Shown: positions 24,201-64,000 of the stretch, in pieces | How positions within the stretch are numbered: position 1 is the stretch's first letter | Layout: each line of letters starts with the position of its first letter | Notes under the pieces: model-generated | What the model was told of the DNA's origin: nothing | Database searches by the model: none | What the model saw: the letters and a program-made list of their open reading frames with translations, nothing else | Assembly (NCBI RefSeq): GCF_016859285.1 | Contig: NC_053418.1 | Span: forward strand, 19,493,329 to 19,557,328 | Length of the DNA stretch: 64,000 bases | Source: Xiphias gladius | Taxonomy: Eukaryota; Chordata; Actinopteri; Istiophoriformes; Xiphiidae | Direction: 5' to 3' | Program-made: the position numbers and the translations under genes

Positions 24201-26473
24201 ATGCATGTCAACAAATTTCATAGAGCAAGGGAAGCTGTTTTAATGATTTCTGTCATTTTATTTTCTATGATAATTTTTTTCCTAACCATTTGAGTACTCT
24301 GGTGTGTATGTCTTGGTATTTTGTGTTTCCATGCATGCACACTTGTGCATGTGTTCTGTTTAGTGTCGTACTGTGTGTGTCAGATATGTGTAAGGTTGAC
24401 TGTACCTGTCTTGCAGGTACAGTGGCGTCTTTCCCAGCCTCAACATGGCAGTGAAACGTCGGGAACAGGCACTGCAGGACTACAAACGGCTGCAGTCCAA
24501 AGTGGAGAAGTATGAAGAAAAAGAAAAAACTGGGCCCGTTATGGTCAAACTACATCAGGTACTGTGGTTTAAAGCTTACATTACTGCACATGTTTGTCCA
24601 CTCAAATGCTCCCTCTATCTGCAGAAGAGCAAAGTTCACTTACTCTTACATGTTGTTCATATTGTGAATTGAACGCAATAAGTGGAAAAATACAAATGCT
24701 GACTGGATATGAACAAAAATAGTTGAGCACATGCATACTGTACATGTGCACTCCTTCACCCACGCAAGCTACCAGGCTCTCAAGTAGTGCCTTTTCAAAA
24801 AGGCATTGCTGCGCATCTACAGGCACGTAATTGAGAATTGTAGACACACACATACGCACACACACCATGAGGCCACTACAGAGGCACACACATTCACAGA
24901 TAGCGATGCAGTGCTGCCTATGCTATTGCCTCTAACACGTCCTCACATGGCAAGCCACCCACACACACTGAGAAAAGCACTGTCAGGGGAACAAAGCCTT
25001 GAAAAGGCCCCTACATCCCTGCCCTTTGAATCCCTGTGCACTTAAAGAAATGATCCTGACAAAACACTCGTATGCTACTTAAACTGGCAAGAAAACTAAA
25101 TAAGGTGAAGAGACCATACCATTATGCAGCAGATAAACAATATGCTGTAGTTTGAATATAGCAACCCCCCTTCCCCTTAATAAAAATTCTCACCCTCTCA
25201 CACATATTCATTGTACATTCCATAACTCCATGCCTACAGTAGACTACCCACTAATACATTCACACACAGATCAGTGGTGCTGGAGTCCACTCACAGCCAA
25301 GTCTGCCCACATTACCCACTCCTCCTCACTGTGGTCGTGATTACAGCCTTTTTTTTTTTTTCTTTTTCTTTTTCCTTTTTTTTTTGCACTGCTTCTCTGT
25401 GGGAATTAGGCAAATATCTTTCTGAACAATAAGAAAAAGGACACTAATGACGCCTCAAGTGCTGAATTTACTTACAACTCACTTGTTCCTCTTTGCAGAT
25501 ATTTGTGATTCTCTCATTCTGTAACTCCCTGTAAATTGTGGAAGTATCTTTATTTGTAGTGTATATTATAACATGACCTGACGTGAGTGAAACGAGGGGA
25601 CGTTCTGTAAAGTCAGAACTGATACTGACCATTGGTGGTCTGTTCTTTTGTTTCCTCTCTCACCTCCACACCCCAGGCCAGAGAAGAGCTCCGGCCAGTC
25701 AGGGAAGACTTTGAGGCCAAAAACAAGCAGCTGCTGGACGAGATGCCCAAATTCTACCACAGCCGCATTGACTACTTCCAGCCCAGCTTTGAGGCTCTCA
25801 TTCGGGCGCAGGTTAGTGACCCCCCCCTCCCTGGAGACAACACACAATGAGGTGCTCACGCATGCACGCACACACCCACCCCAAAGTGTGCTGTTACGCC
25901 CTGTGAGCATTGGTTAAACAGTGGATGAAGTGTCTGATGGAAGGGAGTGTATAATCCTAGCAGTCTGTCTCCCTCCACGCTGTCCTAATGTGATTAACCC
26001 CCAATGACGGCCCACACTACTGTGTTTAGCCCAGGAAGGCCTCATCTGTCTGGCTCCACTGCAGCTCTGCAAGCCTTTCTCTAACCTGAAGCTTCTCTTA
26101 AAGCAGCTGAGTGACTCAAGTTAGCGCCACCCTGCCCCCCCTCCCCCACCCCAGACCTGCCTGGCCTTGTCATTTCCTCCTTGGGACAGCCACTGGCACA
26201 CTCCTAATTAGTAAACTAGATTATCCCAGACCTAATGACAATTAAGAAGTTCTATGATGTATTTTGAACTTAAAATTAGCAAACTGAGCAATCAACTATA
26301 ACCATCATAAAATTATTCCACAAATCTAAGCTCAGATCTTTTCTCTTCTGAGGATACATCACATTTTTACCTTTTTGTATGGTGCAAGAGCTCCTATTAC
26401 TGGCGCAAGCTATTTTATTCTATCTAAATTATATATATTGATGTAACTCATGCACATGAATGAGCATTTACAC

Positions 26474-26523
<50 letters not shown>

Positions 26524-28375
26524 CCACACGTGGGTGGTCAGTGGACCAATGGACCTCATCCCCAGCCTTGTTGTATGTGATCGGTTTCATCCTCCACTCC
26601 CTTCTCTCCCAGCCGCTTGTTGCTGCTCAGCTCCCAGTGGCAGCAGAAAAGGCACAAAGGCTGCCTTTGTTGTGAGCCTTCAGCTTCACTACCACAAGTC
26701 CTGTCCAGCGACTGTCAGTGGGACACACAGGCTGACCTGTCCACCTGTACAGATGTTGATGAATTGAGACATTGTCCCGCTATTTTTTTCTCCTCGGTTT
26801 TGAATTCTCTGCTGCATGTATTCATTTTGTAAAAAACACTTAAAAGATTACTTTCTTTGTCTCTTTTTTTCAGTTGATTCTCTTTGTCTCCTGAAACAGT
26901 GGCCACGCAGTGTTTTACAGACTTACTGGATAGAATGCAACTTAAATTATTCATTATTTTTGTAGGCTAAGAGGTCAAAGTGTAACCTCTCTGTATAAAT
27001 ATTAAGCAGCTGGGACTATGTTATGTTAAAATGCCTAGACAGAAGTCATGTAAATTGAAGCTCTGCTTTACCCAAAGGCTCCTTTTCGTATTGTAGGTGG
27101 TCAGAGTTTTGTGAGGCTGCGTTTACTCCTCGTGGTGACTCGACTAATTGGAATAGTAGTTTGTCTTTGCTACAGAAGGCACCCAGACACTGATCTGGTG
27201 TATATTATCATCATTGGTCATATGGACATTTCCGATGGCCTTTTCAACAGGCCACATTTGGTTTAAAAAAAAATATATATCCGTTTTACCCCCACAAACA
27301 GCAGTAACCCAATACTTACAACCCACTCATGTGGTTTAGGTGGCAAATATTGGTATAAACATACAAATGTCTTTCAGACTGAGCACTTAAAAGGTGGTTT
27401 AAAAACTTGACTTTTTTTTTTTTTTCCTTTTGGATGACAGTGTCAAATCTGCTCAGGACAGAGTGAGACAAATTTTATTTCTATATAAGATACAAGATTT
27501 TTCCAACTTGACCTAGGCCTTATTCTGCTGTGACCCTTAGCGAATCAGTAAGCATTTCTCCCACTGGTATCTTGGTTGGTCTTGCTGTTTCAGCCTACAA
27601 TAGGACACATGCAATTTCAAAGAAGCCAACAATGCCCCCTTAAGAGCATGGTATTGTATGCATTGCTGTGTGAATAAATATTGAGATGTGTGTGTGGGTT
27701 TCAAGGGGTTGTATTTCCTAGTACTTTCATTCTCTGCCTACTCTTCTGGAGTCTTGTAATGTGATTAAAGTCTATTAATCATCAAAGCAACTCTCTAGGG
27801 AGCCTGACTCATGAACTAAGGGGAAGAAGCAGGGGTGGGAAGTGTCAAAAAAGCTTTCAGTGAACACTCACTATCTCTTGTTCAGATCGAGAGAGAAAAG
27901 CAGGGTCACTACCCACTGAAGTGCTGGGTTTTTGGGGCTTTGTCGGAGTTGTTTGATATCTGTGGGCTCCCTCTTCTCCTCTCGAATCAGTTCTCATTAG
28001 CGGGGGAAAGATGTATGAGACCAGCAGCTTCGGGCTTTTGTAAGTAAAACCAAGGTTAGATTGTGCGAGTGGAGCAGAGTTTGGACATGAATATTGGAGA
28101 GTTTCCTGAGAGGCATCTAGGAAAGGTCTGTGGATTGACTGTGTAGTCTTTATCAGAGGACAGACAGGACAGGACTATTTTTTTCTGCAATTACAGCTTT
28201 TTTTCCCCTTTTCCCTCCTGTCCCTCAGGTGGTCTATTTCACTGAAATGTACAAGATCTTCAGCGAGTTAACAGACCAGATCGACCAGGCAGGGTTGACT
28301 GATGAGCAGAGGGAGAGGGAGACTGAGGCCAAGCTCAGCGAGTTGCGTGCTCTGTCCATTGTCGCAGACGACTGA
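5460..28375 (+). CDS. bin3: Bridging integrator 3 (BAR-domain protein), 5' partial
   Basis: Coding exons: 5460-5508, 6624-6664, 13241-13302, 14903-15039, 19517-19557, 24417-24558, 25677-25811, 28229-28375. They total 754 nt; eight more bases from a missing first exon would give 253 aa, the usual BIN3 length. The protein begins [16 protein letters not shown], continues through [20 protein letters not shown] and [20 protein letters not shown], and ends [13 protein letters not shown], all matching vertebrate BIN3. It is one BAR domain with long helices and no SH3 or lipid anchor. BIN3, the Rvs161/Hob3 orthologue, binds curved membrane and links to Cdc42 and actin organisation. All junctions are in phase and the stop is TGA at 28373-28375. 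No frameshift or lost residue was seen. Introns reach 6.6 kb. Confidence 0.95.
9141..9223. repeat. (AC)n microsatellite, about 41 units
   Basis: Uninterrupted AC dinucleotides within bin3 intron 3. They produce artificial Thr-His or Cys-Val reading frames on the two strands, which should not be called as genes. Confidence 0.98.
9787..9814 (+). repeat. Degenerate telomere-like CCTAA run
   Basis: About four or five imperfect units of the CCCTAA type (CCTAACCCTAATTCTAACC and on). It is too short and degenerate to be an interstitial telomere of note. Confidence 0.45.
11696..11941. repeat. Short dispersed element with imperfect inverted ends
   Basis: The left end ACCTCTGCCAAGG (11696-11708) and right end CCTTGGCAGAAGT (11929-11941) are reverse complements at 12 of 13 positions. 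The interior has CCATCCCTCCACCAAGTTCG and TTTTTGCGTAATCCTGCTCA, wording I recognise from a repeat abundant in teleost genomes. No open frame of note. It could be a small non-autonomous DNA element or the tail of a retroposon; the sequence alone does not decide. Confidence 0.65.
13303..14902 (+). other. bin3: bin3 intron 4, with an enhancer-like block at 13840-14130
   Basis: No coding exon was recognised. A 169-codon frame (13518-14027) is probably fortuitous. The segment 13840-14130 mixes balanced composition with motifs such as CATTAATGG, GATATGCAAA (octamer-like) and TTAGCTGATAAAGG, which looks more like a conserved non-coding element than random intron. That is an inference from texture only. 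Confidence 0.45.
15040..19516 (+). other. bin3: bin3 intron 5, with a GC-rich block at about 17800-18470
   Basis: Mostly AT-rich intron. The block at about 17800-18470 is markedly richer in G and C and stays open in several frames, the longest 215 codons on the minus strand (17823-18470). None of the translations resembles a known protein. A C-run followed by a T-run sits near 19286-19312. The GC-rich block may be a conserved regulatory island or an unannotated transcript. Confidence 0.45.
20043..20198. repeat. Compound (CA)n/(GACA)n microsatellite
   Basis: CA dinucleotides interrupted at intervals by GACA units over about 155 bp in bin3 intron 6. It generates His-Thr or Cys-Val low-complexity frames on both strands that are not genes. 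Confidence 0.95.
21270..21291. repeat. Small perfect inverted repeat
   Basis: CACTCAGTG, four-base spacer, CACTGAGTG: perfect 9-bp arms in bin3 intron 6. It is short enough to be chance in a window this long. Confidence 0.7.
24559..28228 (+). other. bin3: bin3 introns 7 and 8 (exon 25677-25811 between)
   Basis: Intron 7 (24559-25676) has scattered CA-rich sequence and a T-rich tract near 25351-25385. Intron 8 (25812-28228) has an AC microsatellite (26477-26522), a homeodomain-type cluster around 26203-26255 (CTAATTAG, GATTATCC, ACAATTAAG), a T-run near 27411-27426, and a perfect AP-1 heptamer TGACTCA at 27805-27811. No further exon was seen. Confidence 0.6.
26477..26522. repeat. (AC)n microsatellite
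   Basis: About 22 AC units in bin3 intron 8. Confidence 0.95.
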
Positions 28376-30908: not shown

Positions 30909-33900
30909 TTAAATGGCTGTTGTGCTGTACATGCTTGATATCTGTTCCTGAAAGACTCTGCGGATGTCAGCGCGTCTGCTTTTCAGGGTGGGTGTGAGAA
31001 GGCCATTGGCGACGCTAAACATCTCCGGATGCAAGTGAAGGTCCTTCACCTGAAAGGAGGAAAAGACGCGACACAAAATAACCAGTCGGTACTGGGAGCT
31101 TTGTAGCTTGTAAACTTTAACTGTCAGCAGAGACTGCTCACTTGTTCAAAGGATTTCAGCCCTGCTTCCTTCCCCACGGCTTTCATGTCCTCTAACACTG
31201 CATTCTTTACATCCTGTTGGTAGACAGGATGTACATTTTTTTTAGAATGCATACAGTAGTGTAAAGTAGTGATATTAAAGAGATGTTTCGAAATTTGGAG
31301 ATTTGACATACAGGATTCTGGCACAGCTCTTCATAGGACCCCACAAATCCCCGCTCTTTAGCCCAGTCAACAAACACCTCGAGGTCAGGCACAACTATGC
31401 CTATGAGATAAGACTGGTAACATGAAATACAAGAGAAAATTAAACATTTAAGTCATATCTAGGCAAAAGATTTCTATATAGATCAAATGAATAGGAATCA
31501 TATCGTATCAGCATTGTACCTGTAAACTATCTCCATGCACGAACACCTGGAGCACAGGAACACAACGCGTGTAGACATTTTCTATCTTCTCCGGAGCAAT
31601 GTACTCCCCCTGGGACAACTTGAAGATGTGCTTCTTTCTATCAATGATGCGTAGTGTCCCGTTCTGGCAGAAGAGAAATGTAGCACACACTTTTTCCTCA
31701 CTCGCAGGAAATTAGGTGATTATATGTGTGTCAATCATTGGCTGATTGTTCTGTCTGATCTTACAGGAAGCCACTGGCCTACATCCCCACTGTGCAGCCA
31801 GCCGTCACTGTCCAAGGCCTCAGCCGTCCTCTCTGGGTCCCTCAGGTAGCCTCTAAACACACTGGGGCCACGGATGCAGATCTAATGCAGGACAATGCCA
31901 CGAGAAGTGTCAGCAGGCGGCAAACTGTCTGGTAATATGTACAGTATGATTGCATCTTCAGACTCACCTCTCCCTCTCCATTCTTAGCATAGTAGTTCAT
32001 GTCAGGGATGTCAACCAGCTTCACCATGGCACAGGGTAAAGGAGCACCAACATGACCTGACAGACACAAAAACATACCTGCTGAGGACACGAGTAGCAAG
32101 CATGGGCACAAAAGCACAAGCAACTGAAAGAGCAAAAGTGAAGAATCAGATGGTTTCTTACCTGCGCTCCAGTCTCCCGGCATAGAGAAAGTGCAGCCTG
32201 CAGTGCACTCTGTCTGACCATAACCCTCGAATATCAGACAGCCCAGAGTGGCTCTGAGGAAGGACAGCACCGTGGGGGAGATGGGTGCTGAAGCAGTCAG
32301 GGCAAACCGTAAATTACCTCCCAAACTGGCCTGAAACAGACGTAGTACACGCAGCGTTCATGTAAAGTGGCTCAAACGCAATCGTACTGTGCTTTCATTT
32401 TAACCACTTCCAACCTTGGTCATATTTCCCATCTGCACTGACCATAACAAGCTAGAATCTTTCAGTTCTTGTTTGCCCGTGTGCGCGCTTCTCCAATATC
32501 CTCCCACAGGGCCAATATGCTCTGGGTGATTTTGGCGCTCATTGTTGGAATAGCTGTGCTTCTCTCGTACATTTTGGATACAAATTTGTTATTGTTACAT
32601 CTCTCTATATATCTATATCTATCTATACACATAAATACATACACATACACACACACATATATACATACACACACTATTTGCACGGCTGCTGTTACCGCTG
32701 TGTTAAGTATTACCAAACATAAGTAGTGACAACTGTAAAGTCCTAGATTAACAGAAAATATGTCATTGAAGACTGAATGTGTAGTTAAAGAAAACAAAAA
32801 GATTTTTTTTGTTTTTTGGGGTTGATTTCTGATCCCTGAAGAGGCCAAACATAAGGGTGAGCAAACCATACATGAATGTACAGCACCACAAAGCAATGAG
32901 AGATGTAGTTCTAAAGCAAAGGAACAGCAACAGCATGGGAAGACATGATCCAGGCAGCATTAAAGTGGAGCTTTCAGCAACTGACCTGAATCCTGTTGAA
33001 CACCAGTTTGTCCCACAGACTGTTATTACGTACAACCCCGCTGCTGAGCTCCGCCTGCTTTCTCCTCACAGCGTAGTGAAGCAAAGCCCGTCGCAATGGA
33101 GAGGTCACAGAACCCAGAATCTTTACGGAAATCAGAAAAATCGGACATGAACATAAAACAAGGTTTAAAACATCACTGATCTGAATATATTTGCTGACCT
33201 TGTCATAGATGCGATTGAGTAATCGAGGCACAACGGGAAAGAAGGTAGGTTTGAGAGTTTTAATGTCGTCCATTAGAAGGGAAATGTCCCCTTGGTAGAA
33301 TCCTACTCTGGCCCCATGGCAGAACATAGAGACCTGTGACAGACATAGACTTCATTTTAGGGCTTACACACAAGAAGAAGAAGAAGAAAAAAATAAACGT
33401 CGGAGAAGAGGATCAACTACCTGAATCATCCTCTCAAACATGTGGGCAAGAGGCAGGTATGAGATCGACACATCCTCTTGCTGGATCACAAACGAACCCT
33501 GAGAGAAGACGAGAAATAATATGAGCAAAGCACCAGGGAGAGATAAAGTTCAGGCAGCGGCACACGGTGAAGCCTCGCAGGCAATCATATGCGCTTTACA
33601 GCTTTTTCAACAGCAGTTAGATAGCTGAATCTTCATACCGGGGCAATTAGTTAAAGTACCTCGTTGTGACAGGGGCCATCAAACACCCAATTAATCATAC
33701 CATTAGACACAGCAGGGAGAGGGATAGCTTTGACATACAGAAACACAAGCAGATGGGAACTGATGGATGCTGTGAGGCTGTTCTCAATTAGACAAGGAGG
33801 TGGAAGTGTAGACAGACCTCCAGGATCTTAATGACAGAGGAAGTGTTGGAGGCGATGTTGCCGTGGGTGATCATGGCTCCCTTGGGTTTCCCTGGATAAA

Positions 33901-36900
33901 TAAACAAGACATTATTGCAGTGTTCTGCACAGCAAAGGAAACTACAGCGGTGCCATAGAGAGAGGTTGGTAGTGGGCACTGAAGGACACTTCTCTAATGA
34001 TGTGAGTCAAGGATAATTAGGGAGAGACTTGAGAGATCAGACGATACCTGTGGTTCCACTGGTGAAGCAAACCACGGCCAGATCCTGGGGCTGGGGCGGC
34101 TACAGCAGGCAGCAATAAAATATGAGAATATGACAACGGGCTTCCTCCACTCTTAATTTAAGCCCTGTTTACAAGTGAGTGTTAATGATATCTTATGGGA
34201 CAGGGGCAACGATAAAACTGTAAACCTAGCATTTAGAGGGGGATCAGCTATTTACTGGAACCAGTTTGATGCGGTGATACAGCAGCTGAGAGACCATATA
34301 CTCACCACAGGATCTTTGAGGTTCTGCCTTCCCAGGTCCTAAGATGTGGACAAAGAGGAGTTTTTCATATCAATTTGCACATCAGCATTGATTAAAGGGG
34401 GGAAATTTAAATGACTCTGCATTATAGGGATTTAGTGCTTCCACCCTGCTCACCATGAGCTGCTCCAGTTTCAAAACCTCCACCTCGCAGGTCTTCGCCC
34501 TCTCCACCAAGGCTTCACTGAAATTGTTAAAGAGAACCAGGCAGGACAGCTTCGGAGTTACGCCTTTCTCCTTGTTCTCTAACAGAGACGCTGCCTTCTC
34601 CTCGCGGTCACAGATCACCAGAGAGATCTCCGCTAGGAATTCGCCGTGACACACAGATGGGATAAACTTAACTGATCCCACGCAGGAAAATTTCAAGTGT
34701 CAAAGCAGCAGAAGTAAAAGAACTGATGCATAGGTCAAATTAAATAATTAGAATAATATATACAGTATAAAGTACTATCTACTGCTATCTATCTACTATA
34801 TACAAATGCAGTTTTAAGTACAATATACAGTAATTATGAAAAGTGAGTTAGTACATTTACTCAAGAATTATACTTATATTGCTATTTTCTGCGACTTGAT
34901 TTCTACTTCACTCAGAAACTGTGCATCTGAAAGCTACAGTAACTTGTTACTTTGCAGAGCCAGATTTTCCATTAAAAACATATGAGTTTATAAATTGCAA
35001 CACATTGATAAAAATTGAACCAGTTTTTTATAACCTGTATGGGTTTTATCCCCTTACAAAAAAAGGGTCTATCAGATATTAGCAAAGAGTGATTTTCCCT
35101 CTCAAATTGGGAGATCAAAGTAGGTGAAATAATCCAATTTTAACAAAGAACACAGATTAGAAAAGAGTTTGTTTTTTTAAAAACAAACAAGAATACATAT
35201 ATATCACCCCCATTTTTCTGCAGAACCAGCACGTTTATTTTTTAGTACATATAGCTCATAATATTTCTGTACTTTTACTTAAGTAGGATTGTGAGAGCAG
35301 AAATTTTACTCCTAATGAAGTATGTTTATATGTACTACAAATACAAATTACAAATTCTTGAGCTGAAGTAAAGAGTCTGAGTACTTATTCAGCGGCTGTT
35401 TCCAACACCAAGCATATATAATTCTCTCTTAGATGTGAGTTACAAATACGTACACATTTTGCATGTCTCCCTCAGTCTCCAAAACAATATTCTCGGAGAA
35501 GGGTCACTGTGTATTGACCACGACAATGGTCTTGCATTCTTCAATCATATAATAATATGATATAGGAGGCTGGCAGGCCAATAATAACAACGAGGGTTGC
35601 ATTTTGTGGTGAACTATCGCTTTAAATAATCATAAAATCTCATCAGCTATGTTTTTTTTTTTTATTTCTACAGGAAGGTTTTCTCACCCAGGTTGAGTAT
35701 GTGGACCATGGCCTCCAGCCCCAGTGTGTCGTACAGAGGCACCACCGCCATGGAGTAAGTGTAGCAGGCCAGCTCTGAGATTATCCACTGTGACCAGTAG
35801 AGGGAGACAGAGCAGCACTGTTAGACTCATTTTCCAGTCTTGACTCATTGCTGCGTACTTGTTGAGTCAGATATCTAATCATTAGAGACTTGTGCATTAG
35901 GGTCTACATTACATGCATTTCATATCTACAAAACCACATTAAAAATTAAAAAAAAAAAAACCACCCGCTGTGTAGACTGGTCTGATGGAGCAGAAAATTT
36001 ATTAGGGTCTAGCCAGGAGAAATATCATTTTGAACTATAGGGCTGTTTAGAGGCAACAACGATGTATGACTTAGGAGTTACCCAATCGATGCTAAAGCTC
36101 ACAGGTAACCAGCCAATGTGGGAACAAATTTCACACTAGAAAACAGCGATGAGTTCATACCTCTGGTCTGTTTTGTGCAAATATCCCAACAAACTGCTGC
36201 GGGGTCGGCTGGCAGCCTTTAGCCAACAGCCCGGAGCCCAGCACCCGCGCCTGCTCGGCCACCTGAAGGAGCAAAGACCCAGAGTCAATTGACAGCGACG
36301 CAGAAGAGCTTTGATGACTGGAGGATAAGTGCTAAAATATGCCAGACCTCAGTGTAGGAGATCCACTGGTAGGGCTGGCCCGGCTTCCTGGAGCCGAGGC
36401 ACGGGCCATTTCCTGAAGGACACAAGACAGCGGTTTAAACATATGCAGGATTTACAGCAAGGTGTCTGCGATATCTTTCTTTTTTTAACTAGGGACTGAA
36501 TAATCAGAACTATTACAGTTCTCATGTTAATTAATTAGGTAAACTAATTATAAAACATACTTCATCAGTCTTTATGTGCACTTCAGTGTCATTTATATAA
36601 ATGTGAGTGTATAACATATAAGTTTTACTTTGAAATTTTACCAGTAAATTAATTTTGGTTGTAGAGATGTTCATTTGGTCCATTTGCCCACACACTAACT
36701 GTACCTGGAAACCAGTGCTGTTGCTTGAAATCCTACCAAATGTCAGCTTTGATTACACAATCAAATTTAGGATAAAGTTAAATGAAATGTGTTGTGAAAG
36801 TTTCCACTGTCATCACCTGATATCTTCAGGCCTCTCTGGAACATGTCGTAGGCCGTCCTGGTATCATCGTAGTAAAAATCAAGCAGCGAGTCATCTTTGA

Positions 36901-37274
36901 GAAGAGCCGATCGCCTGCAGCTGGGATCTCCCTACGGCAGACACCACTATCACACACCTTAAAACACTCCTTCGGTAATGACATATGCCCTTTACACAAG
37001 ACTAAAGTGACTGTGATCCACTCACGTTTACAGCTACAGACTGGGCTTGCAGATCACAGGGGGGACGCATGGGTCGCGGACGGGTCGCCAGCCAGTATGC
37101 AGTGAGGGAGGCCAGGGCTCCTAAACCTAGCAGAGAGGAGGGCGACAGAGACAGGGAGGACAGGGAGAAGGAGGACAGGGGCAGAGACGGCAGAAGACTC
37201 CAGAAGTCCTCTGATTCAGAACCTTTGAGTCCCGCGTTGGAGCGAAGTGACCGTAACCACTCCTGGAAATGCAT
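30909..37274 (-). CDS. Long-chain-fatty-acid--CoA ligase, ACSL1/5/6 type
   Basis: Exons in transcript order: 37274-37026, 36931-36817, 36412-36348, 36262-36161, 35787-35688, 34632-34454, 34338-34306, 34099-34048, 33891-33818, 33498-33421, 33333-33199, 33120-32986, 32330-32162, 32056-31968, 31881-31765, 31663-31520, 31413-31312, 31213-31142, 31049-30909; 2151 nt, 716 aa. It activates long-chain fatty acids to acyl-CoA with ATP at ER, mitochondrial outer or peroxisomal membranes. Residues about 45-67 form a hydrophobic anchor followed by [13 protein letters not shown], typical of ACSL1/6. The P-loop is FTSGTTGKPKGAM (293-305), then YGQTECTAG (476-484), [14 protein letters not shown] and [14 protein letters not shown]. 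Oddities: HSGD where relatives have HTGD, TASAP where they have TGAAP, and a Ser/Leu-rich leader. Paralogue identity (acsl1, acsl2-like or acsl6) is unresolved. No disruption seen. Confidence 0.93.
32331..32985 (-). other. acsl intron with CA/TA-rich stretch
   Basis: Intron between the exons 33120-32986 and 32330-32162. Contains an imperfect ATCTATA and ACACATACAC-rich run at about 32600-32675. Nothing else recognised. Confidence 0.75.
33499..33817 (-). other. acsl intron, nothing notable
   Basis: Intron between exons 33891-33818 and 33498-33421. I see no repeat, motif or extra exon in it. Confidence 0.75.
34633..35687 (-). other. acsl intron holding an old dispersed repeat
   Basis: The largest intron between coding exons of this gene, strongly AT-rich. 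Most of it (about 34850-35415) is a degraded dispersed repeat described separately. The remainder shows nothing. Confidence 0.65.
34850..35415. repeat. Degraded dispersed teleost repeat
   Basis: Contains CATCTGAAAGCTACAGTAAC, TTGTTACTTTGCAGA, GTACTTTTACTTAAGTAGGA and GAGTACTTATTCAG. Together these are the hallmark pieces of a repeat family scattered through fish introns, ending near TTCCAACACC. Ends are approximate and the copy is old. Confidence 0.55.
35788..36160 (-). other. acsl intron, nothing notable
   Basis: Intron between exons 36262-36161 and 35787-35688. Contains an A-run at about 35948-35961 and no other feature I can support. Confidence 0.7.
36413..36816 (-). other. acsl intron, nothing notable
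   Basis: AT-rich intron between exons 36931-36817 and 36412-36348. No exon, repeat or motif recognised. Confidence 0.7.
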
Positions 37275-37617
37275 AGCTGAGAGAAGAGGACAGCAAAAAG
37301 AATCCAGTGAAACAGAAGGAAAATACGTGGTGCATTAGCCTCACAAAAGTTTCTTTGTGCTGCAGTTAAAAAAAAAAAAAAAAAAATGACGATAAACCAC
37401 AACGATGAACATGTAGCGAGAGACAGATTCAGTGTCCCAGTGTTCTAATGTGTATCGTTTTTGTGTTATCTTCTGGACTTTTATCTGATAAATTCATTAC
37501 TTTGTTGTCTTTGAATTGCTTTTATCATCCTCTCTTTCCTTTCCTATGATGCACTTTGTAACTTTCTTGAACAGCAGTAGCACTGATTGTGATAGATACT
37601 CATATCTATGACTGCAT

Positions 37618-44010: not shown

Positions 44011-47000
44011 TCAGAAATCATCCCAGTTTGTGCACAGCTCCACCAAGTCCTCAGTGTAATGGCCACATGCACTGCTGTCCAAGGGATGCTTGACCTGAAA
44101 TACAGTGTAAGAGGAAAAAAAAAAATCTAGTACTAATCTAGTATCTAGCACTACTCGAGTTACCATAAAACAAAAAAAAATATTCCAAACTCAAAGTGTC
44201 TTACTTTGGGAACAACTGGTGGGTTTAATGTTCTTTTACAAAGTCCATCCCAGTTGAATCCTTCAAACCATCTGAATAAAAACAGAGCATCACAACCTAT
44301 AAAACCATGTTTTGCAAGCACTGGCCTCAGTGTTTTTCTCCAGTGCAATAAATCTGTCGCCTTACTTGTGCTTCTGAATGTCCTTGGCCTCATTTCTCAG
44401 ACTGCCCACTCTCTCTGAGGGATTGCTCCTTGGTGATGGAGAGCGAAAGAGAACACACTAATAAATAAACTGTGAATTAATAATCAGATTACCACCAAAA
44501 GGTGGTGTCACAGCACAGGTTGTGTCCAATAAACCTGCATCATTTCTTAATTTGCTCCTATCTGTTTCATTGTGTTGAGGCTGGAAGAGGGGAAATATAT
44601 TACACAAAGGTGGATGGATGGAGGATGGTTTTTATGTCAGAAAAGGGGCAACAAATTAACTAGAAAATTGTAATCAACTTTATAATAATAATTCATGATG
44701 TCTAGCAGGTCATAACTACAACACCTGCACAGTTTCTTTATGAAACTGGAGGCACTTTTGCTGATGTTTTTCGGGAAGTCGATCTGATCGATGCCACGAA
44801 TGGTTGCAGTGAGAATCTTCATCGGGTCAGAGCCGCTGAATGGGAGCCTGGAGAGGAAGACAAGAACCCATCTCTATCACCTTAATCTACAACTCAAGAA
44901 TTGAGCCTAAGAAGCCCTGCTGGGCTGCACAGAACTGTAAAACTTACCCACCACTCAGCAGTTCAAACACAAAAACCCCCAGTGACCAGAAGTCTGTAGA
45001 TACACTGTGGCCTTTGTTCAAGATGATCTCAGGTGCCATATAGCCCAGTGTACCGCAGAATGTCCAGGTTTTCTTACCAACCTCAACCTTCTTTAGACAT
45101 CTGGAGCCAATCTACAAAACGAAGATATCAGTACATTTACGGTTACCTTTGGTAGAATTCAACAGAATACTCAAAATGTGGACTTAGGTTTGTAACCAAT
45201 TGTAGCACCAGTTTTGCATAACCATGCTCATCCAGAACAACATTTTCAGGCTTGACGTCTCTATAGATGACGCCTCCACGGTGAAGAAAGGTCAAGGCCT
45301 CAACAACACAAGCCGTGTAGAACCTGCTGCTGCATTCGTCCAAATGTCCTCTGAAACAGTGTGCAGAAGTGCTGATTGAAACATCACAGCCAACACTACA
45401 AATGTGTGATGCAGACAGATGTAAAACATCAGACCCTGGTCAGTCTTAAAACTGAACTGTGATGAAAGGTTGGCTAAAAACACAGTGGTAGCATTTTAAA
45501 TATTTTATCAGTGATGGCAAAAAGTGCCTTGAATCTTAATTTCCTTTAGTCCAAAAATACTTACTTATCTTTAAGTAGACTACATAAATCCCCACCAAGA
45601 CAAGCCTCTGTCAAAATGTACAGGCACTCAGGGGCTCTAAAGGTTTTATGTAGCCTGTGATTGATACAAATACAAGAACATGTTAAAGATCTTTTTTTTA
45701 GTCATTAACACATTATGTAATCAAACAAATCCTAATTAGATAACTGTTAAAAAAACAAAACAAAAAAAGAAACAAGCAACAAAAAGACACCTGACTAGGA
45801 ATGGACAATGTGCCTCCATTAGGATGTGCAATTCTCTCAGGATGTGCTCTCGTTGACCGTTGCTGAGGATCAGCTTCTTCTTAAGGACCCTCATGGCAAA
45901 AAGACACTTGATGTTGGTCTTTACTTGTACCTGACAGGGTTGAAAATCAATACATTACATTAGAGAAACATGGAATCTCCAGTAGGCAGCAGCACAGTGA
46001 TCACATGGTAAGAGCAACCCTTACCAGGTCTACGTGACCAAACTCCCCAGCTGCTAGAGTGCAAATAATGTGGAAATCACTTAAGGTGGAAGATGAGAGG
46101 AGTGTACAATCCTCGTCTGGCCTGCTCACAAGGAAAACCAGGGTGAGATGATATCTTGTGTTTTCTGTGGGTGCAAATAACATGTAAATGCTTATAGAAA
46201 TTATTATTTTAATGCTGCTCACTCGACTTTGTATTCATGACTTTGCTGCACCTCATGACTGCCGTCAAATACCAGCCCATCGATGATGTCTTTGAAGGTC
46301 CTGAAACACAGAAGCATGTGAATATTCTCCAAATCTCTCGATAAGCACAACAATTCATGACCAAATTAGAGTGTAGTGCAGCGACCGAAACAGGTACGTT
46401 TTGCATGCAGGTCATTTTCTAATCACAAAGCATCCACTTACTGTCTGTCTATTACCAAGCATGTAACTGCCCCAGCAGCGACCACATTCACCGTCCGAAT
46501 GTCCTCTCTAAAGACAGAGTCAAGAAAGTACAACAAGAAAATCATAATGTCATTCAATGCAAAGCACACAATTTAAAAAGAAAATCATTGATACCTTGCA
46601 GGCACAAATGTCCCTTTTTACCATCATGTGCTGTTTTCATAAAAGCTGCTGAAAACTATGCATAATTTCTTTTACAGCATCTTCTGAAAGTGCATCATTT
46701 CCTTCCTCTTACCCCAGCAGAGCTTTTTCTCCAAACCAATGTTTCTCAGAGAGCTTAGAAAGGACTATCTGCTCTTCTTGCCCTGGCTTCTTTTCCGTCA
46801 CTTTCACCTGGCAAATCCAAGGTAGAGAGGTAATGAAAAAGAGGTGGTGCTGGAGAGTAAAGTAGAAAAAAGCTGCAAAGTCAGTTATCGCCATCATAAA
46901 ACAATTTTTAAAGCTGCGCTGACATTTTGTTCTCCACACTCCAAATCTTTTACTCTGAAAGCCTCATTTCATCTGTGCAGCAAGCAAAGAGCATAAAACT

Positions 47001-50000
47001 TTACCTGGCCTTTGCTAATGATATAAAAGGTGTCTCCCGTGGCCCCTTGTCGAATAATGTAGTCTCCCTCAGTGTAGTGTGTCTATGGAAGACAAATGAC
47101 AGACGAGCAAACAGTGGAAAGTCATTTTGTGGGAAGCATTCACCTGCTTATTAACTGATGCAACACGAAGGAAGCTGAAAGTAGGAAATGCAGGGGGACC
47201 ATCCGTAAACAAGCATGTTTACACACATTCCCTCTGTCTGTATGCATAATCTATTGGCTGGTTTCTGTTCGCAAAACAAGTGACGGCTACAAAATACCGC
47301 GCTTCAGATTTTGAGAACTTCATCTGTACCTCCTCCATGAGATCAGATATTTTCATGATGACATCCTCTGGCAATGACTGCAGGAAGGGAACGCTGTAGA
47401 CACACACAGGTTTGCAAAAGGGTTTGATGTCATTTTTCCACCTTTTCTAGGTTCTTAAGCATATCAGAAACGTGTCATAGGAATGTTGATATTTTGATAA
47501 GTGTTAAAGGCCTAAATGCAGCACTGTGTTTGTGCTTGCAAGCAACATGACCCTGGTGATATTGTGTGGAAGGCATTAGAGTACAAAGCAACTTTCTGGC
47601 CTGTTCCGTATCAAATCAAGTGTATCTTTCTGCTGTTCACCTGCTAAGCAGTCCCATTGAATGAGAAAGGCTGGTGAGACCACTCTGTATAAGTGTGGCC
47701 TGGTAGCTCTTGCAGTCAATAACCCACAGCTTGCTGTCCGTTTGTGCTGCAGATCAAAAGACAGAGAAAGTGATAGGTTTGTGAAAGGTTGTGTCACTGA
47801 CATTGGAGCTCAGGTAGAGCATAATCAAGAAGCAGGTATTGAAACAGCTTTGTAATGAATGTGGATGTACAATGAAGGATCATCAGCTACAGCCTGGACA
47901 GTAGACAGAAAGCAGGTCCGGACTGCATTATAAATGCTTAGCAAGTAGAATAAATAGAAGCATTACTCCTCATTTTCCTTACAAAGGACTTTGAATATGA
48001 ATCAAATCTGGTTTCCTTAGCCATAATTACCCTCTTTCCTTATAATAGAGCTTGAAAGAGTTGTTGTAATGACTCATATTGATTGGTTCAATGAATCTTC
48101 GTGCAAATGGAAGTAGATGTCCTCTAGATCATCTCATTAGATCCAGCATCTGATAATTTGGTACAGCCGTGATATCTTCCCCATTTGGATATACCCCATC
48201 AGTTTTCACTTTAGCACCATATGACACTTCAAGGCCATTGCTTTTTACGTGCTTCTGAATCCTGTTCAGAGTATTTTTAAAAAGTGAAATTCTAGTCTAA
48301 AAGGAAGATTTTCTGACATTTTCTTCACTATATGCTTTGCCACCATCAACTTCAATGACCTGATGATGACACCCTGCCATCACCTGCATTCCTATCAGTG
48401 TCACAATGAAAGAGACCACAAAGCAAAAACCTTACTGACGGTCTCAGATGGCAACAATGGATTAAAAAAAAAAGTAATTTCAGGTCAGGAAGGAGATAAA
48501 CACAAGGGGCCCTGAAGAAAGCCACAGCGAAGGGCTGACAGAAATGGACACGGAACAAAGGACAACAGACTGAGACATGAGCTGAGCATTGCTATCGGAG
48601 AGCAATCATATAGTGTCAACTGGTCACCAGATAAAGAAAGCAGTATAAAGGGAATGAGATGCTTAGGGACCAAACAAGGCAAATAAACAGATTTTTCAAC
48701 TTAAACTGATTCTGGCTTTTTTCCACACACTATTTATCTGTGAAACCTGGTCAGATGCATGAAGCAATGGCTGAGAAAGTTATCTCACACGACTCTGTGA
48801 TCAGATGCGGGAGGGAAATAATTGCATGCTTTCTAATTTCTAAGGAATATCTCAAATTCTTAAACCAGAAAGGTATATATGACAGGTTATGGTCCAGCAC
48901 AGAGAAGAGTGAACTGAATGCCAACTATCTCTGAAAACGTTATTTGTAAATGTTTGTAAAAATTCGGTTAATGCATGCTGGGTTGCAGGGGGGAGATATG
49001 GCAGACAGACAGCTGGGTTATGCGATAAAGCAGAAAACCCTTTAAAATACCCACATCTCTGAGAAAATATTTTGAAGCTGTAGTGTTGTCTTAGATCTCA
49101 AAAGGTCTTTGATTTTTATGTTCCACAGACATCTTCTGTGTAAGACCACTGCTAGGAAATCTGCCCGCTTGTGACAAATCTCTTAAAGAACAATTATTCA
49201 TTAACCCCCCCCCCAAAAAAAAAAAAATTAATCTCAGTAAAACTCCATCAATGTTTTGGTGTGACAGTGATATCTGTATGCAGATATAAAACCCAGAAGC
49301 CAACACCAGGCTTTGATACCTGAGACAGAGTAGGTGTGGGTGCAGTTGTAGAGGAGAGCCAGCTCTCCAAACACGTCTTCTGGCTCAATTGTGAGCAGCT
49401 TCAGTCCGTCTCTTGTCACCTCCATCCTCCCTTCTGTTAACAAACACACAGTCAGTTAAGAAATATAGCATGTACGCACACAATACATAGAGTCGTACAT
49501 GCATGTGTTTTTGCATCAGAAAATGAACGGGGACTGTCAAGAACCGTTCACTGCCTGAGATGTACTGCCTGAACAACAGATACGCCATCACTTCTGAGCC
49601 AGGCCAGGCCACCACCTCACTGGTTAGGATGAGGTGAGAAAAATAGGGCGCAGCCACACTCCATTAGCTGTCACATTACAAATGCAACCAAGATTCCTGA
49701 GGACAATCAAGCACGGATGAACTCTGCAACCAAAGAAAAACAGAAACTCTTCGCTCTAGTCCATTCAGGCTGAAGTTGACATTTCAATACAAAACATCAA
49801 TGGAGGTCACTTGTTATTCCACCAAGTGCCTCCTCTTTCCTTGCTCAAGCAAGAAAGCAGGCAATTGTGAGCCAGCAGTAAGAAAACTGATATACAAAGA
49901 TATGATAAAATATATCATTTCATCGGACTGCTCTTAAGCCCCTGTCATCTCAAGGAAGTGTGAATAAATATCCTCAGGTATGATTAATGTCAGCAGTTGT

Positions 50001-50821
50001 GAGAAAAAAATGAATTACCTTCTAAAACATAAGCATGACCCCCGCTGGTCCCCTCCTGAATGACATAGCAGCCTTGATTGATGGTGGTGGGATACATGCA
50101 GGCTATGAGGGCTCGGATTTCTCGTTCGTCAAGGTTCTTCAACAAGTCATTTTTCAAAAATGCTGCCTGAATCAGCCTCTGAGACCTGAGGGCATGAAGG
50201 CGGGATACTGATGAAACATTTAAGGGCACGTTATTATATGCCTTGAGTGCAGTGTCACAGGCTACAGTGTTATAAAATGAGTAGAGAAACACATTGATTC
50301 TGAGTCATGAGGAAAGCAGATGGGTGAGCTTTGAACATTTGAGAAACCAACTTTTCAGTTAGAGCAGGTGGGAGCTGAGGGAACACTGAGTGCTCTTACT
50401 CCTGGCTTTTGTCAAAGCTTCTTTGTGAAACCATGGCGAGAGTCACCGGGTCCAGACTGAAGGGGTCAGAAATGACTGTCTTCCTTTTGGCTCTCTGCCT
50501 GTCCTCAAGTTGAGCTGAGCAAGCTACAGAATAAAAAAACCCCACAATAAGTCAGAATTTTAGCTCAGGTTTAGGGCTTGTGCTACCTGTTGATGCTTTA
50601 AAATATGACAAAAAAGTAGCATGTTCTGCACCTGCACTGACTGCAGAGGGTCCTGGGAGGCAGACGGTGGCTCTGTAGCGATCCAGTTCTTCCTGTAGTC
50701 TCCGAATAAGTTCATCTTTTGTGTCCAACTCCAGCTCTAACTCATCTATAAGTGTGTCCCTCTGGCGAAGCTCCTCAATCTTTAGTTGCAGGGCAAACTG
50801 GAGGTCCCGAAGTGTACCCAT
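44011..50821 (-). CDS. cGMP-dependent protein kinase I-like, predicted pseudokinase
   Basis: Exons: 50821-50632, 50523-50400, 50185-50019, 49433-49320, 47746-47641, 47393-47330, 47082-47005, 46807-46713, 46507-46442, 46300-46223, 46121-46025, 45930-45791, 45654-45565, 45350-45209, 45111-44948, 44847-44725, 44428-44366, 44271-44205, 44094-44011; 2052 nt, 683 aa versus about 686 for PKG I-beta. Domains: I-beta-type leucine zipper (1-55, [12 protein letters not shown]), autoinhibitory segment (74-84), CNB-A (about 105-225), CNB-B (about 235-345), kinase (about 376-635), tail ending NWDDF. Relatives phosphorylate Ser/Thr when cGMP rises. Here the glycine loop is LAAGEFGHV, the beta-3 Lys is Arg407, and DFG is Gly519-Ser520-Arg521. 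The YRDVKPEN loop, alpha-C Glu426 and APE persist. CNB-A has His193 for Arg; CNB-B keeps Arg317-Thr318. It may be a fish prkg paralogue (prkg3-like). Confidence 0.92.
47747..49319 (-). other. prkg-like intron 4
   Basis: 1.6-kb intron, AT-rich, with short C-run/A-run sequence at about 49206-49227. Frames of about 65 codons are not coding. Nothing else recognised. Confidence 0.75.
49434..50018 (-). other. prkg-like intron 3
   Basis: A 90-codon minus frame overlaps it (49385-49657), but that frame has no kinase or cyclic-nucleotide similarity and runs into exon 4 from the intron. No repeat recognised. Confidence 0.7.
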
Positions 50822-51110
50822 TACCTGCAAACACCAGGTGTCAAAATACAGCAAAACATATCTCCTTCTACGCACAAACATACACATAGTGTACATACAC
50901 AAAGAGAGTGGGTGCAACTACAGCTAATCTCAAAGCTTGACAGTTCTTCTCTAATTAATGTGCATATTTTCCTGTGATTATTTAAATTAATATTAATAAT
51001 ATAAAGGAGAATCACTAAGGGCTAATGGCTTTGGCTTGGATTCATTCAATAGCATACATGGGAGAGTATGTTGTATGCTTCTGTATTAATATCCCAGTTA
51101 TTACTTAATA

Positions 51111-51171
51111 TAGATAGATAGATAGATGGATAGATAGATAGATGCATAGATAGATAGATAGATAGATAGAG

Positions 51172-51238
<67 letters not shown>

Positions 51239-51240
51239 GA
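51111..51240. repeat. (GATA)n tetranucleotide repeat
   Basis: About 30 units of GATA/ATAG with occasional TGGA, TGCA and GAGA variants. Minus-strand translation gives an artificial Ser-Ile-Tyr-Leu frame. Confidence 0.95.
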
Positions 51241-53090: not shown

Positions 53091-54745
53091 ATGATTCTTA
53101 CCGTGAAACCGCTTCAAGGAAAAGAATGCAGTGTACAGGTAAGTTAAGAATCCCAGAGCCAGCTAACTGCTATTGGTTAACTCCCTGACGCTAGCTTAAA
53201 TCGCAGCATTAGCCTTTACAGGGAGCCTAGCTGGTTAGCGGTGGTCATGTCACATGCCGAGCTTCGATTGAGTGAAGCAACCACACATATTCCGCGTGAG
53301 TCGAAATTATGATTATTGAATGTAAACCTTTCCGCCCAGTGTAGCTTGAATTGAGCTTTTGCACAGACACATCGTCGCCCAGGTATGAATTGACGTTACT
53401 GTAGGTAGCCTGCTAGTCTCAGCCCAGGCAGGATACTGCTACGTTATCAGACTTTCTCTCGTCCTCTCTCTCCTCTAACATGCGTTACCACTTTCACACA
53501 CAGAGGCTGAGTGGGAGCTCTGTCAGTCCTTATATGGTGGTACTTGTAAGAGAAAGAGAGAAGACACCAGGCCAACGAGTCCACGAAGCAGCATCCTGGG
53601 GATGAGGTTTTGGTTAGGCCGGCACAGCAGTATAACTAACTACCTTACAAGTCACTAGCATTATCTGTTCTGCTCTCAACAGTCTGCGACCTCAGTTTCA
53701 CACTGTAGACTAGTCCAAGCCCCAGTGTGTGCCTCTCCTATTTTTAAGTGATAACGTTACTTTATGAGGCACCAACGAGTGCTATAACTGGCCACATATG
53801 TATAGAAACTCGCACAGCTCCCTGAGTAAAGGAGATGTATGAACATAATCAGCGTAGTATGTGAGTGTAGGAACTACTTTTTAATATGATCAGTGTACTT
53901 ACTGCTTTAGTCTTTTGTGTGCAGTTATTTAAAAAATAATACTATTGATGTCTAGCACAGACAGTGACAAGCAATCTAAAGCATGTGATAATGTTTATCA
54001 AAGGGGGAAGACTAGACTAAATTTTGTCTTCAGTGGAAGATAAATTATTTTAAAATCTTCTTTTAATCTGAGTCAGTGATTAAGATCATACCATAGTTCT
54101 CCTAGCTCTGCTCTGAAAGATAAAAAAAAAAACAAGTACCTGCCCAAACTGTTAGCATGCCTGTTATCAGGTATGTCTGCAGTGCTTATGGGATAAATAC
54201 TACCACTGAAGGCCACTGGTTGTTTTTATTCGAAGAATATGAAGAGTTTACCAAAGTAGAGGTGCATTTGTCAACTGTTTGTGTGTGGGTGGGTGAATGC
54301 CCCGTTAATCGTTGGTTACTCTTCAGCTAAACTGAATGAGAAGCTGCTTGCCAGCTGTATTTTGATCATGTAGTGTGATTACATCATCATGTTGTTGATC
54401 TTCCAGGTGACAGAAGATGAAAAAGTCTCCACAGTGAAGGAACTTGTGTCAGAACGTCTCAACATTCCAGCAAACCAGCAGCGGTTGCTCTATAAAGGGA
54501 AAGCGCTTGCAGGTAGATCTGCCTACAGTCTAGTGATTCATAACCTTTGTACATTACTGTAATTGCTTGATCCATCAATCTATTTTCTACGTGAATCAAA
54601 TGTTTAATTTTTTGCTGATCGCATACTATACTGCTTTCCTCAGATGAACACAGACTGAGTGATTACTCCATTGGGCCAGAGGCTAAATTGAATCTGGTTA
54701 TCCGTCCAGTGGCGGAGAGGACTGGAGCTTCAGGGATGGCTGCTG

Positions 54746-54781
<36 letters not shown>

Positions 54782-56188
54782 CACATGGAGGAGTGTGGCA
54801 GAATGTGTCCACTATACTTGCTAGACACTTCAGTCCAGCAGATGCAGCAAAAGTCCATGAACAGCTTATTAAGGTATTTCATTGCAGCATCTTTGCTCCT
54901 AGGCATTGTAATCTGATTTTTGCTCCTAGGCATTGTAATCTGATCAAAGCTAACTTTGTGGTCGTCCGTTTTGAGATGTGGATACGTGCAGTTGCTGAAC
55001 AGTAGAATATTCAACAATTAGTGGAGGCTGGAAACTGAAAATGTTAATGAGCAATGCATCAAATGCAGCTTGAAAGGGCTTTGGCCTATTTATGAATGGT
55101 TAATGAACGTGTGGATGTGAGGGCAAGATAATTTGATATTTATTGGAAATTTGAGAATAATTACATTTGCCAATATTTTTCAGCTGACAAATGATCTGTT
55201 GCGTCTTGTTCTGTTACTATAAATACTACACGTACATTTAGAGACTGGATCCTCTCAAGCCCTCATTTTTAGTTGTAATACATCACAGCAGGCCAACAAG
55301 AACCATTTAATTTCAGTGTCTGATCCAAGTATAATGTCATTCACCAGATATTTCATTTGAGGGGTCGATCTATCACTGGACAGGGCCAGAAGAAGAACAC
55401 AATTTGAAGAACCCACTGCAAGGTGTAAATAAAGAAAGCTGCCAGCCAACATAAAATTGTACAATGTGCAAGTGCTTTTTATGGGCCATTTAAAGTTATA
55501 TGGATATCTCCCATTAAAAGTTGTCCTATCACGTACTGAAACAAAACCTCACAACTCATACTGTTTACCACTTGTATTTGTAATTTGGCAGTTTCATTGC
55601 AACTTCTGGTGATCAACTGGGAAATCTTTGACTTACCAAGTTAGTTAGAGCCTCCCATTAATACACTATTAGTTGGGTCTCTATGAGACTAAACCTTCTC
55701 ATTTTGGAAGGAGGCGCAGGCTGAGGGATCCAGTTCCTAAATTAGGACGCATCACAGACTCAACGGGTTGGTTAATGTGACCGTCCTGTCTGCAGTTTAC
55801 CTGACCTCAAATTGTTAAAATACTTCACTTTTGTTGGAATTTTTAGCTGCCAATATGTCACTTTACTTGGTTTGGCTTCAGATCTGCATTACTAAACAAA
55901 CTAGAATAAACAATCTAAAAAGTTAGACATTCCGGATGGTCATCCTTCCTATCCTCCATGCTTCATTAAGAATAGAGCAATATCCCCACACACATAACAT
56001 GGTTAAAATAAATTCAGAAGATGGATAATATTTTTTTCTACCTGCTGTTTCTCAATATTTTTATTTTGTTTTCCTTCAAGGACTATGAACGTTCACTTCG
56101 ACAACTTAGTCTTGATGACATTGAGCGCTTAGCAGGAAGACTCCTTCACCCAGACGGCGAGGGCATGGACACCTCATACATGGACTAA
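53091..56188 (+). CDS. ubl4a: Ubiquitin-like protein 4A
   Basis: Exons 53091-53138, 54407-54512, 54644-54873, 56081-56188; 492 nt, 163 aa. Residues 1-74 are the ubiquitin-like fold (MILTVKPLQGKECSVQ, then QQRLLYKGKALADEHRLSDY and KLNLVIRP); the C-terminal helical part is VWQNVSTILARHFSPADAAK to DDIERLAGRLLHP. UBL4A (GdX, yeast Get5) sits in the cytosolic BAG6 complex. Its UBL recruits SGTA and its C-terminal region binds BAG6, passing tail-anchored proteins towards the ER insertion pathway or quality control. The start has A at -3. An 11-residue polyserine encoded by a pure AGC run sits in the linker, an expansion I do not know from mammalian UBL4A. The rest is well conserved with no disruption. 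Confidence 0.96.
53139..54406 (+). other. ubl4a: ubl4a intron 1, with a CArG box
   Basis: 1.27-kb first intron. CCTTATATGG at 53528-53537 is a perfect serum-response (SRF) CArG box, close enough to the start to act as a regulatory element. No exon recognised. Confidence 0.6.
54748..54780 (+). repeat. ubl4a: (AGC)11 coding trinucleotide repeat
   Basis: Eleven uninterrupted AGC codons in ubl4a exon 3, encoding Ser11 between the UBL fold and the C-terminal helices. Pure repeats of this kind are usually length-polymorphic. Confidence 0.97.
54874..56080 (+). other. ubl4a: ubl4a intron 3
   Basis: 1.2-kb intron beginning with a 27-bp tandem duplication (54892-54944). The rest shows nothing recognisable. 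Confidence 0.75.
54892..54944. repeat. ubl4a: 27-bp tandem duplication
   Basis: Two copies of TTTGCTCCTAGGCATTGTAA plus six or seven bases, period 27, just inside ubl4a intron 3. Each copy contains a CTCCTAGG that looks like a weak splice acceptor. Confidence 0.95.

Positions 56189-57762: not shown

Positions 57763-64000
<6,238 letters not shown>

Follow-up and report, generated by a model that had tools for sequence, protein, structure and literature searches.

The window analysed here, 64,000 nucleotides of the Xiphias gladius genome (contig NC_053418.1, positions 19,493,329 to 19,557,328 of the forward strand), carries on its minus strand a gene for a full-length protein of the PKG I type, which is, very probably, a pseudokinase as predicted from its residues. 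By descent this PKG I-like protein belongs to the PKG I family, as it displays in collinear order the leucine zipper, the auto-inhibitory segment, the two cyclic nucleotide-binding domains (CNB-A and CNB-B), the AGC kinase domain and the tail of human PKG Ibeta. Unlike in the human protein, the catalytic lysine and the DFG motif are replaced (Arg407, GSR519-521), as are the equivalents of the cyclic GMP (cGMP) contact residues Arg192, Arg297 and Tyr351, and Arg316 of CNB-B is kept. A pseudokinase is understood here as a protein that has lost at least one of the beta-3 lysine, the HRD aspartate and the DFG aspartate in an otherwise kept kinase domain; in the present case two of the three are replaced and the HRD aspartate, Asp501, is retained.

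In the ATP/metal site, beta-3 Lys405 is replaced by Arg407, DFG by Gly519-Ser520-Arg521 and the first glycine of the glycine loop by Ala384, and GTPEY reads GTLGY. The initial annotation, which was made from the letters of this DNA alone, had pointed to Arg407 and to GSR519-521; both recur in the verified 683-codon frame, with its residue numbering intact (FAMRVL from 404, LAAGEFG from 383, GSR from 519, GTLGY from 537), and its prediction that catalysis is lost gains support from the four replacements. The gap-free block of 17 residues which it placed between Leu517 and KKTW holds when counted from Leu517 through Trp533, but 12 residues separate Leu517 from KKTW. Across the kinase domain, 68 of the 195 sites examined are identical in human PKG I, PKA and the apicomplexan-type PKG 9p74, which we take to be Plasmodium PKG, in alignments taken from HMMER outputs, and 54 of these 68 are retained. 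The 14 losses are G384A, K407R, K446R, D447A, E462D, R468K, Y491F, L502V, D519G, F520S, G521R, A523L, P539L and Y566F, several of them mild; they include every one of the four invariant sites at 519-523, which has a probability of 1.2e-3 under random placement in a test picked post hoc. We read these losses as apparently aimed at the nucleotide site within an otherwise preserved domain. On position lists for PKA, 14 of 23 ATP/Mg contacts are the same as in human PKG I, as are three of five residues of the regulatory spine (the DFG Phe is Ser and one Met is Leu) and five of eight of the catalytic spine.

The gene runs from an ATG at 50821 to a stop ending at 44011 and consists of 19 exons:

Exon 1, 50632..50821, minus strand: PKG Ibeta-type leucine zipper, residues 1-63
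Exon 2, 50400..50523, minus strand: auto-inhibitory segment RAKRKTVIS (human RTKRQAIS), with Thr79 in the pseudosubstrate target position
Exon 3, 50019..50185, minus strand: start of CNB-A
Exon 4, 49320..49433, minus strand: CNB-A with phosphate-binding cassette, Arg192 replaced by His193
Exon 5, 47641..47746, minus strand: end of CNB-A and interdomain helix
Exon 6, 47330..47393, minus strand: start of CNB-B
Exon 7, 47005..47082, minus strand: CNB-B
Exon 8, 46713..46807, minus strand: CNB-B, cGMP-selective Arg replaced by Ser298
Exon 9, 46442..46507, minus strand: phosphate-binding cassette of CNB-B, Arg317 and Thr318 retained
Exon 10, 46223..46300, minus strand: C-helix of CNB-B, lid Tyr351 replaced by Gln353 (alignment-dependent, near a 1-residue gap)
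Exon 11, 46025..46121, minus strand: linker and glycine loop LAAGEFGHV
Exon 12, 45791..45930, minus strand: kinase N-lobe, beta-3 Lys405 replaced by Arg407, alpha-C Glu426 retained
Exon 13, 45565..45654, minus strand: kinase hinge region
Exon 14, 45209..45350, minus strand: catalytic loop YRDVKPEN retained (Asp501, Lys503, Asn506)
Exon 15, 44948..45111, minus strand: DFG replaced by Gly519-Ser520-Arg521, activation-loop Thr534 and APE retained, GTPEY replaced by GTLGY
Exon 16, 44725..44847, minus strand: kinase C-lobe
Exon 17, 44366..44428, minus strand: kinase C-lobe, NPSER motif
Exon 18, 44205..44271, minus strand: end of C-lobe and start of tail
Exon 19, 44011..44094, minus strand: C-terminal tail and stop, NFDSF of human PKG I not retained

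When the starts of exons 11, 17 and 19 are placed at 46121, 44428 and 44094, the frame is unbroken over a coding sequence of 2052 bases (683 codons and the stop) with no internal stop codon, and GT at 18/18 donors and AG at 18/18 acceptors account for all 36 splice dinucleotides, in agreement with the uninterrupted frame of 19 exons and 683 codons proposed initially. The 18 introns measure 94 to 1573 bases each, and AATAAA signals start 281 and 517 bases 3' of the stop. The gene shows none of the features of a processed pseudogene or of one in decay: no stop codons, no frameshifts and no missing splice sites or introns. Ahead of the start codon, tttgcag/gtaATG (50822-50832, minus strand) is a possible splice acceptor, and a noncoding upstream exon may exist; a long GATA/ATAG tetranucleotide tract lies at 51110-51240, about 300 bases upstream of the start codon.

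The closest relative of solved structure is human PKG Ibeta (7LV3; phmmer E = 2.2e-209, residues 73-673), with which it shares 307 of 600 aligned residues (51.2%), with a single 1-residue gap, so that the collinearity with PKG I-beta noted initially stands; residues 1-90 match the PKG Ibeta zipper 3NMD (E = 1e-18), the one distinct PDB sequence at E <= 0.01. Pfam recognizes two cNMP-binding stretches and the protein kinase domain (Pkinase, 188.6 bits) above the cut-off. Identity is distributed unevenly: the zipper is the best-kept segment with 40/52 (77%, counted against the crystallised 3NMD construct, which possibly has engineered residues), and the other segments range from 28.6 to 63.3%, with the auto-inhibitory segment and linker lowest (10/35), followed by CNB-A (49/113), the kinase N-lobe (36/78), the tail (19/37), CNB-B (70/115) and the C-lobe (113/181); the stretch 497-545 within the kinase has 31/49. 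In the viral, bacterial and archaeal contig collections, which are not aimed at fish, no relative was found among 2 (viral) and 14 (genome) pattern matches.

Besides the kinase, both cGMP-binding domains have been altered. In CNB-A, the phosphate-binding Arg192 is replaced by His193 and Leu154 by His155, with three of five listed cGMP residues kept. In CNB-B, the cGMP-selective arginine, which we take to be Arg297 in human numbering, is replaced by Ser298 and the lid Tyr351 by Gln353. According to PMC9417419, the arginine of the phosphate cassette is conserved in all cyclic nucleotide-binding domains, an arginine in the base region of PKG I CNB-B selects cGMP over cAMP and Tyr351 caps cGMP. 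Exchange of the cassette arginine of human PKG I CNB-A (R177Q in Ialpha, R192Q in Ibeta) lowers the cGMP affinity of this domain more than 10^5-fold and is constitutively activating, as the cassette closes without cGMP (PMC9417419). The cGMP modules are thus predicted to keep the fold and to lose key contacts, and we infer that the protein would bind cGMP weakly. The initial annotation had regarded the dimerisation and cGMP modules as kept; this holds for the zipper (40/52) and for the recognition of the two CNBs, but not for the key contacts replaced by His193, Ser298 and Gln353.

The N-terminal zipper, on the other hand, has Leu or Ile at seven heptad positions and keeps Asp26 and Glu31, which presumably bind IRAG and TFII-I. 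The acidic residues of the PKGIbeta zipper interact with IRAG1, which brings the kinase to the endoplasmic reticulum (PMC10298018). The adjacent auto-inhibitory segment has diverged: where the human pseudosubstrate KRQAIS has an alanine in the target position (PMC9417419), the gap-free alignment gives KRKTVI with the alanine replaced by Thr79, plausibly a phosphorylation site. Of the residues listed for this segment (those in PMC9417419 and some added neighbours) 4/10 are kept, and two of the three residues forming the pocket for the residue next to the target have been replaced, Pro537 by Leu539 and Tyr582 by Leu584 (pocket as in PMC9417419). On the contact lists found in the same source, the linker and CNB-B helix keep 1/5, the tip of the activation loop 1/2 and the 610-625 loop 10/16. 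Judged by the residues kept on each surface, the docking surfaces appear to be only partly eroded, with most of the erosion at the auto-inhibitory segment and linker.

These observations lead us to favour, tentatively and at somewhat short of even confidence, a zipper-directed decoy or scaffold that is uncoupled from cGMP. A full-length fish paralogue of the PKG I type would have lost phosphotransfer and become largely uncoupled from cGMP with the PKG Ibeta-type zipper kept, and would work most likely via protein binding. In a mostly open, cGMP-independent shape, the protein would dimerise through its zipper, either with itself or with PKG I, or would take the place of PKG Ibeta at docking sites like IRAG. 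A wider reading is considerably less probable and on the unlikely side: a conserved fish PKG I lineage would be a pseudokinase independent of cGMP, with only the targeting of PKG Ibeta left, with the natural counterpart of a CNB-A mutation associated with aneurysm as the normal condition and with the pseudosubstrate turned into a phosphorylation site, on which active PKG may write in mixed dimers, and would tune nitric oxide (NO)/cGMP signalling at zipper-anchored sites. In muscle, vessels and neurons, PKG I is one of the main NO/cGMP effectors, with non-catalytic roles that are difficult to tell apart from catalysis. If the decoy or scaffold explanation is true, a PKG that by nature lacks catalytic and normal cGMP-binding residues yet has kept its zipper would isolate the targeting function, and would complicate studies in fish which treat all PKG1-type genes as cGMP-activated kinases.

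Several observations weigh against a catalytically dead, cGMP-uncoupled and zipper-directed protein. In the kinase, alpha-C Glu426, HRD Asp501, Lys503, Asn506, activation-loop Thr534 and APE are retained, as are 13 of 16 invariants of fold and catalysis (PKA positions), the three lost being those of DFG. On the lists of PMC9417419, the contacts on the side of the kinase (the C-domain) are kept at 9/11 positions, with Pro537 and Tyr582 lost, those for docking of CNB-A at 5/6 and those of the CNB-B hinge at 4/4. Because much of the kinase and of the docking contacts is retained, the protein may have some nucleotide binding or weak activity left, or a degree of regulatory:catalytic (R:C) docking. 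Similarly, binding of a cyclic nucleotide by CNB-B, conceivably with no preference for cGMP, may persist, since this domain retains Arg317 and Thr318, six of eight listed contacts and 60.9% identity. An effect of His193 like that of R192Q would hold by analogy, the residue being His and not Gln. The PKG coiled coil of Pfam (PKcGMP_CC) scores 30.8 bits, under the cut-off of 35, and the high identity of the zipper may only reflect that coiled coils tolerate little change. Finally, as one genome is concerned, the state may be specific to the species or the individual.

That the gene model or the assembly is at fault and the true transcript encodes the lysine and DFG is extremely unlikely. By eye, the donor of exon 14, CTG/GTGCTA, is weak and the acceptor of exon 15, GTAG/ATTGGC (45102-45120, minus strand), looks like the codons of V-D-F-G with two bases fewer, and a single assembly is the source. 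However, when exons 14 and 15 were joined by all 186 junction choices (donors GT or GC, acceptors AG, an intron length of 30 bases or more, and the unspliced case), none yielded DFG, and thus no junction of the kind which the initial annotation had named as contradicting it emerged among the computed choices; an open frame into KKTWTFCG is kept by 37/186, none with DFG, and therefore other isoforms are possible. The string GAY-TTY-GGN is absent from the minus strand between 43900 and 51000, and a tblastn search of the whole window with the 7LV3 part of human PKG Ibeta and the zipper found no duplicate or mutually exclusive DFG exon, with all matches of E < 1 located on modelled exons. Furthermore, the exchange of Lys for Arg lies mid-exon, and the changes in the CNBs and the auto-inhibitory segment are independent of the exon 14/15 junction. 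DFG may have been lost together with a shift of the splice site at exon 15. A loss of two bases at the start of this exon as the origin of GSR was considered and rejected, as by eye no AG is located just before those bases and it would not alone create a spliceable DFG exon.

An enzyme that is still active by unusual chemistry, with a lysine supplied from elsewhere as in WNK or with Mg-independent catalysis as in CASK, is highly improbable as well: HRD Asp501, Lys503, Asn506, alpha-C Glu426 and Thr534 would be compatible with it, but the 14 residues of the glycine loop and the strand after it contain no lysine, and WNK and CASK each keep one of the beta-3 lysine and DFG, whereas here the lysine and the whole DFG are both replaced. 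We regard early decay of the gene, with catalysis lost recently and the frame still unbroken, as unlikely, although losses at several functional sites together and an identity to human PKG I of 51.2% across 600 residues, a low value for a vertebrate gene of this kind given that fish PKG I orthologues are presumably far closer to the human protein, would fit with it. An intact frame with intact splice sites would be found by chance with a probability of 0.17, 0.028 and 8e-4 at 0.5, 1 and 2% neutral divergence in a simple model whose transition and indel rates were assumed (8 substitutions for each indel), so that a gene that died long ago is very unlikely and these figures are compatible with a very recent loss; moreover, 54/68 of the deeply invariant kinase sites are retained and the replacement of several adjacent codons at 518-523 would have needed time. 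A cGMP sink or a dominant-negative subunit, which would bind cGMP normally and poison active PKG I in mixed dimers, had been proposed initially and is distinctly unlikely, despite the kept zipper, the two CNB stretches recognized by Pfam and Arg317/Thr318 of CNB-B. As His193, Ser298 and Gln353 replace key contacts in CNB-A and CNB-B, the protein would hardly serve as a sink, and the role as a dominant partner is weakened by heterodimers of dead and active PKG Ibeta, in which auto-inhibition acts mostly in cis, cGMP still activates and the auto-inhibitory segment of the dead chain has no more than modest effects in trans (PMC9417419). Since such heterodimers stay cGMP-activated, a dead chain should, by analogy, halve the catalytic sites and not silence its partner; it would then not be a potent poison, and a role in competing for the partners of the zipper, as in the decoy or scaffold explanation, is more plausible.

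Vertebrate pseudokinases such as TRIB, NRBP, STRADA and IRAK3 likewise keep the kinase fold and have lost at least one of Lys, HRD Asp and DFG Asp; to our knowledge none of this type is a PKG. The terms 'PKG' and 'cGMP' do not occur in the main text of a review cataloguing pseudokinases (PMC7586955), and in the titles, abstract openings and passages searched in the open-licence literature no PKG pseudokinase was found, which is weak evidence of absence; the pseudokinase passages that occurred together with PRKG1 and zebrafish concerned guanylyl cyclases. This result agrees with the initial remark that no vertebrate PKG pseudokinase had been described, although the locus may be catalogued under the name prkg1l. 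In zebrafish, a table in a 2025 review lists prkg1a, prkg1b, prkg1l and prkg2 (PMC12498267), of which prkg1l (ZDB-GENE-140422-2) likewise joins prkg1a and prkg1b as a third gene of the PKG1 type; it is a candidate for the identity of the PKG I-like locus.

With respect to the surroundings of the PKG I-like gene, reading of the open reading frames gives the gene order bin3-like (plus strand), acsl-like (minus), PKG I-like (minus), ubl4a-like (plus) and dnm1l-like (plus), and scans of the window for tRNAs and Rfam families had no match. The neighbours are:

24400-28372, plus strand: BIN3-like exons, which presumably resemble BIN3; Pfam matches in 0/2 pieces
31210-37334, minus strand: long-chain acyl-CoA synthetase-like exons; AMP-binding in 2/3 pieces, 31845-32357 and, just under the cut-off, 32977-33351; the part 37005-37334 is assumed to be acyl-CoA synthetase; no PDB match for the one piece searched
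54619-55002, plus strand: ubl4a-like gene; Tugs domain; PDB match ubiquitin-like protein 4A, E = 6.4e-13
59273-62018, plus strand: pieces of a dynamin-1-like (DNM1L) gene; dynamin domains in 3/3 pieces, one under the cut-off; PDB match dynamin-1-like, E = 4.2e-54

In the ubl4a-like gene, a serine run is located between the ubiquitin-like and the Tugs parts. The set of bin3-, acsl-, ubl4a- and dnm1l-like neighbours is usable for synteny comparisons with fish genomes.

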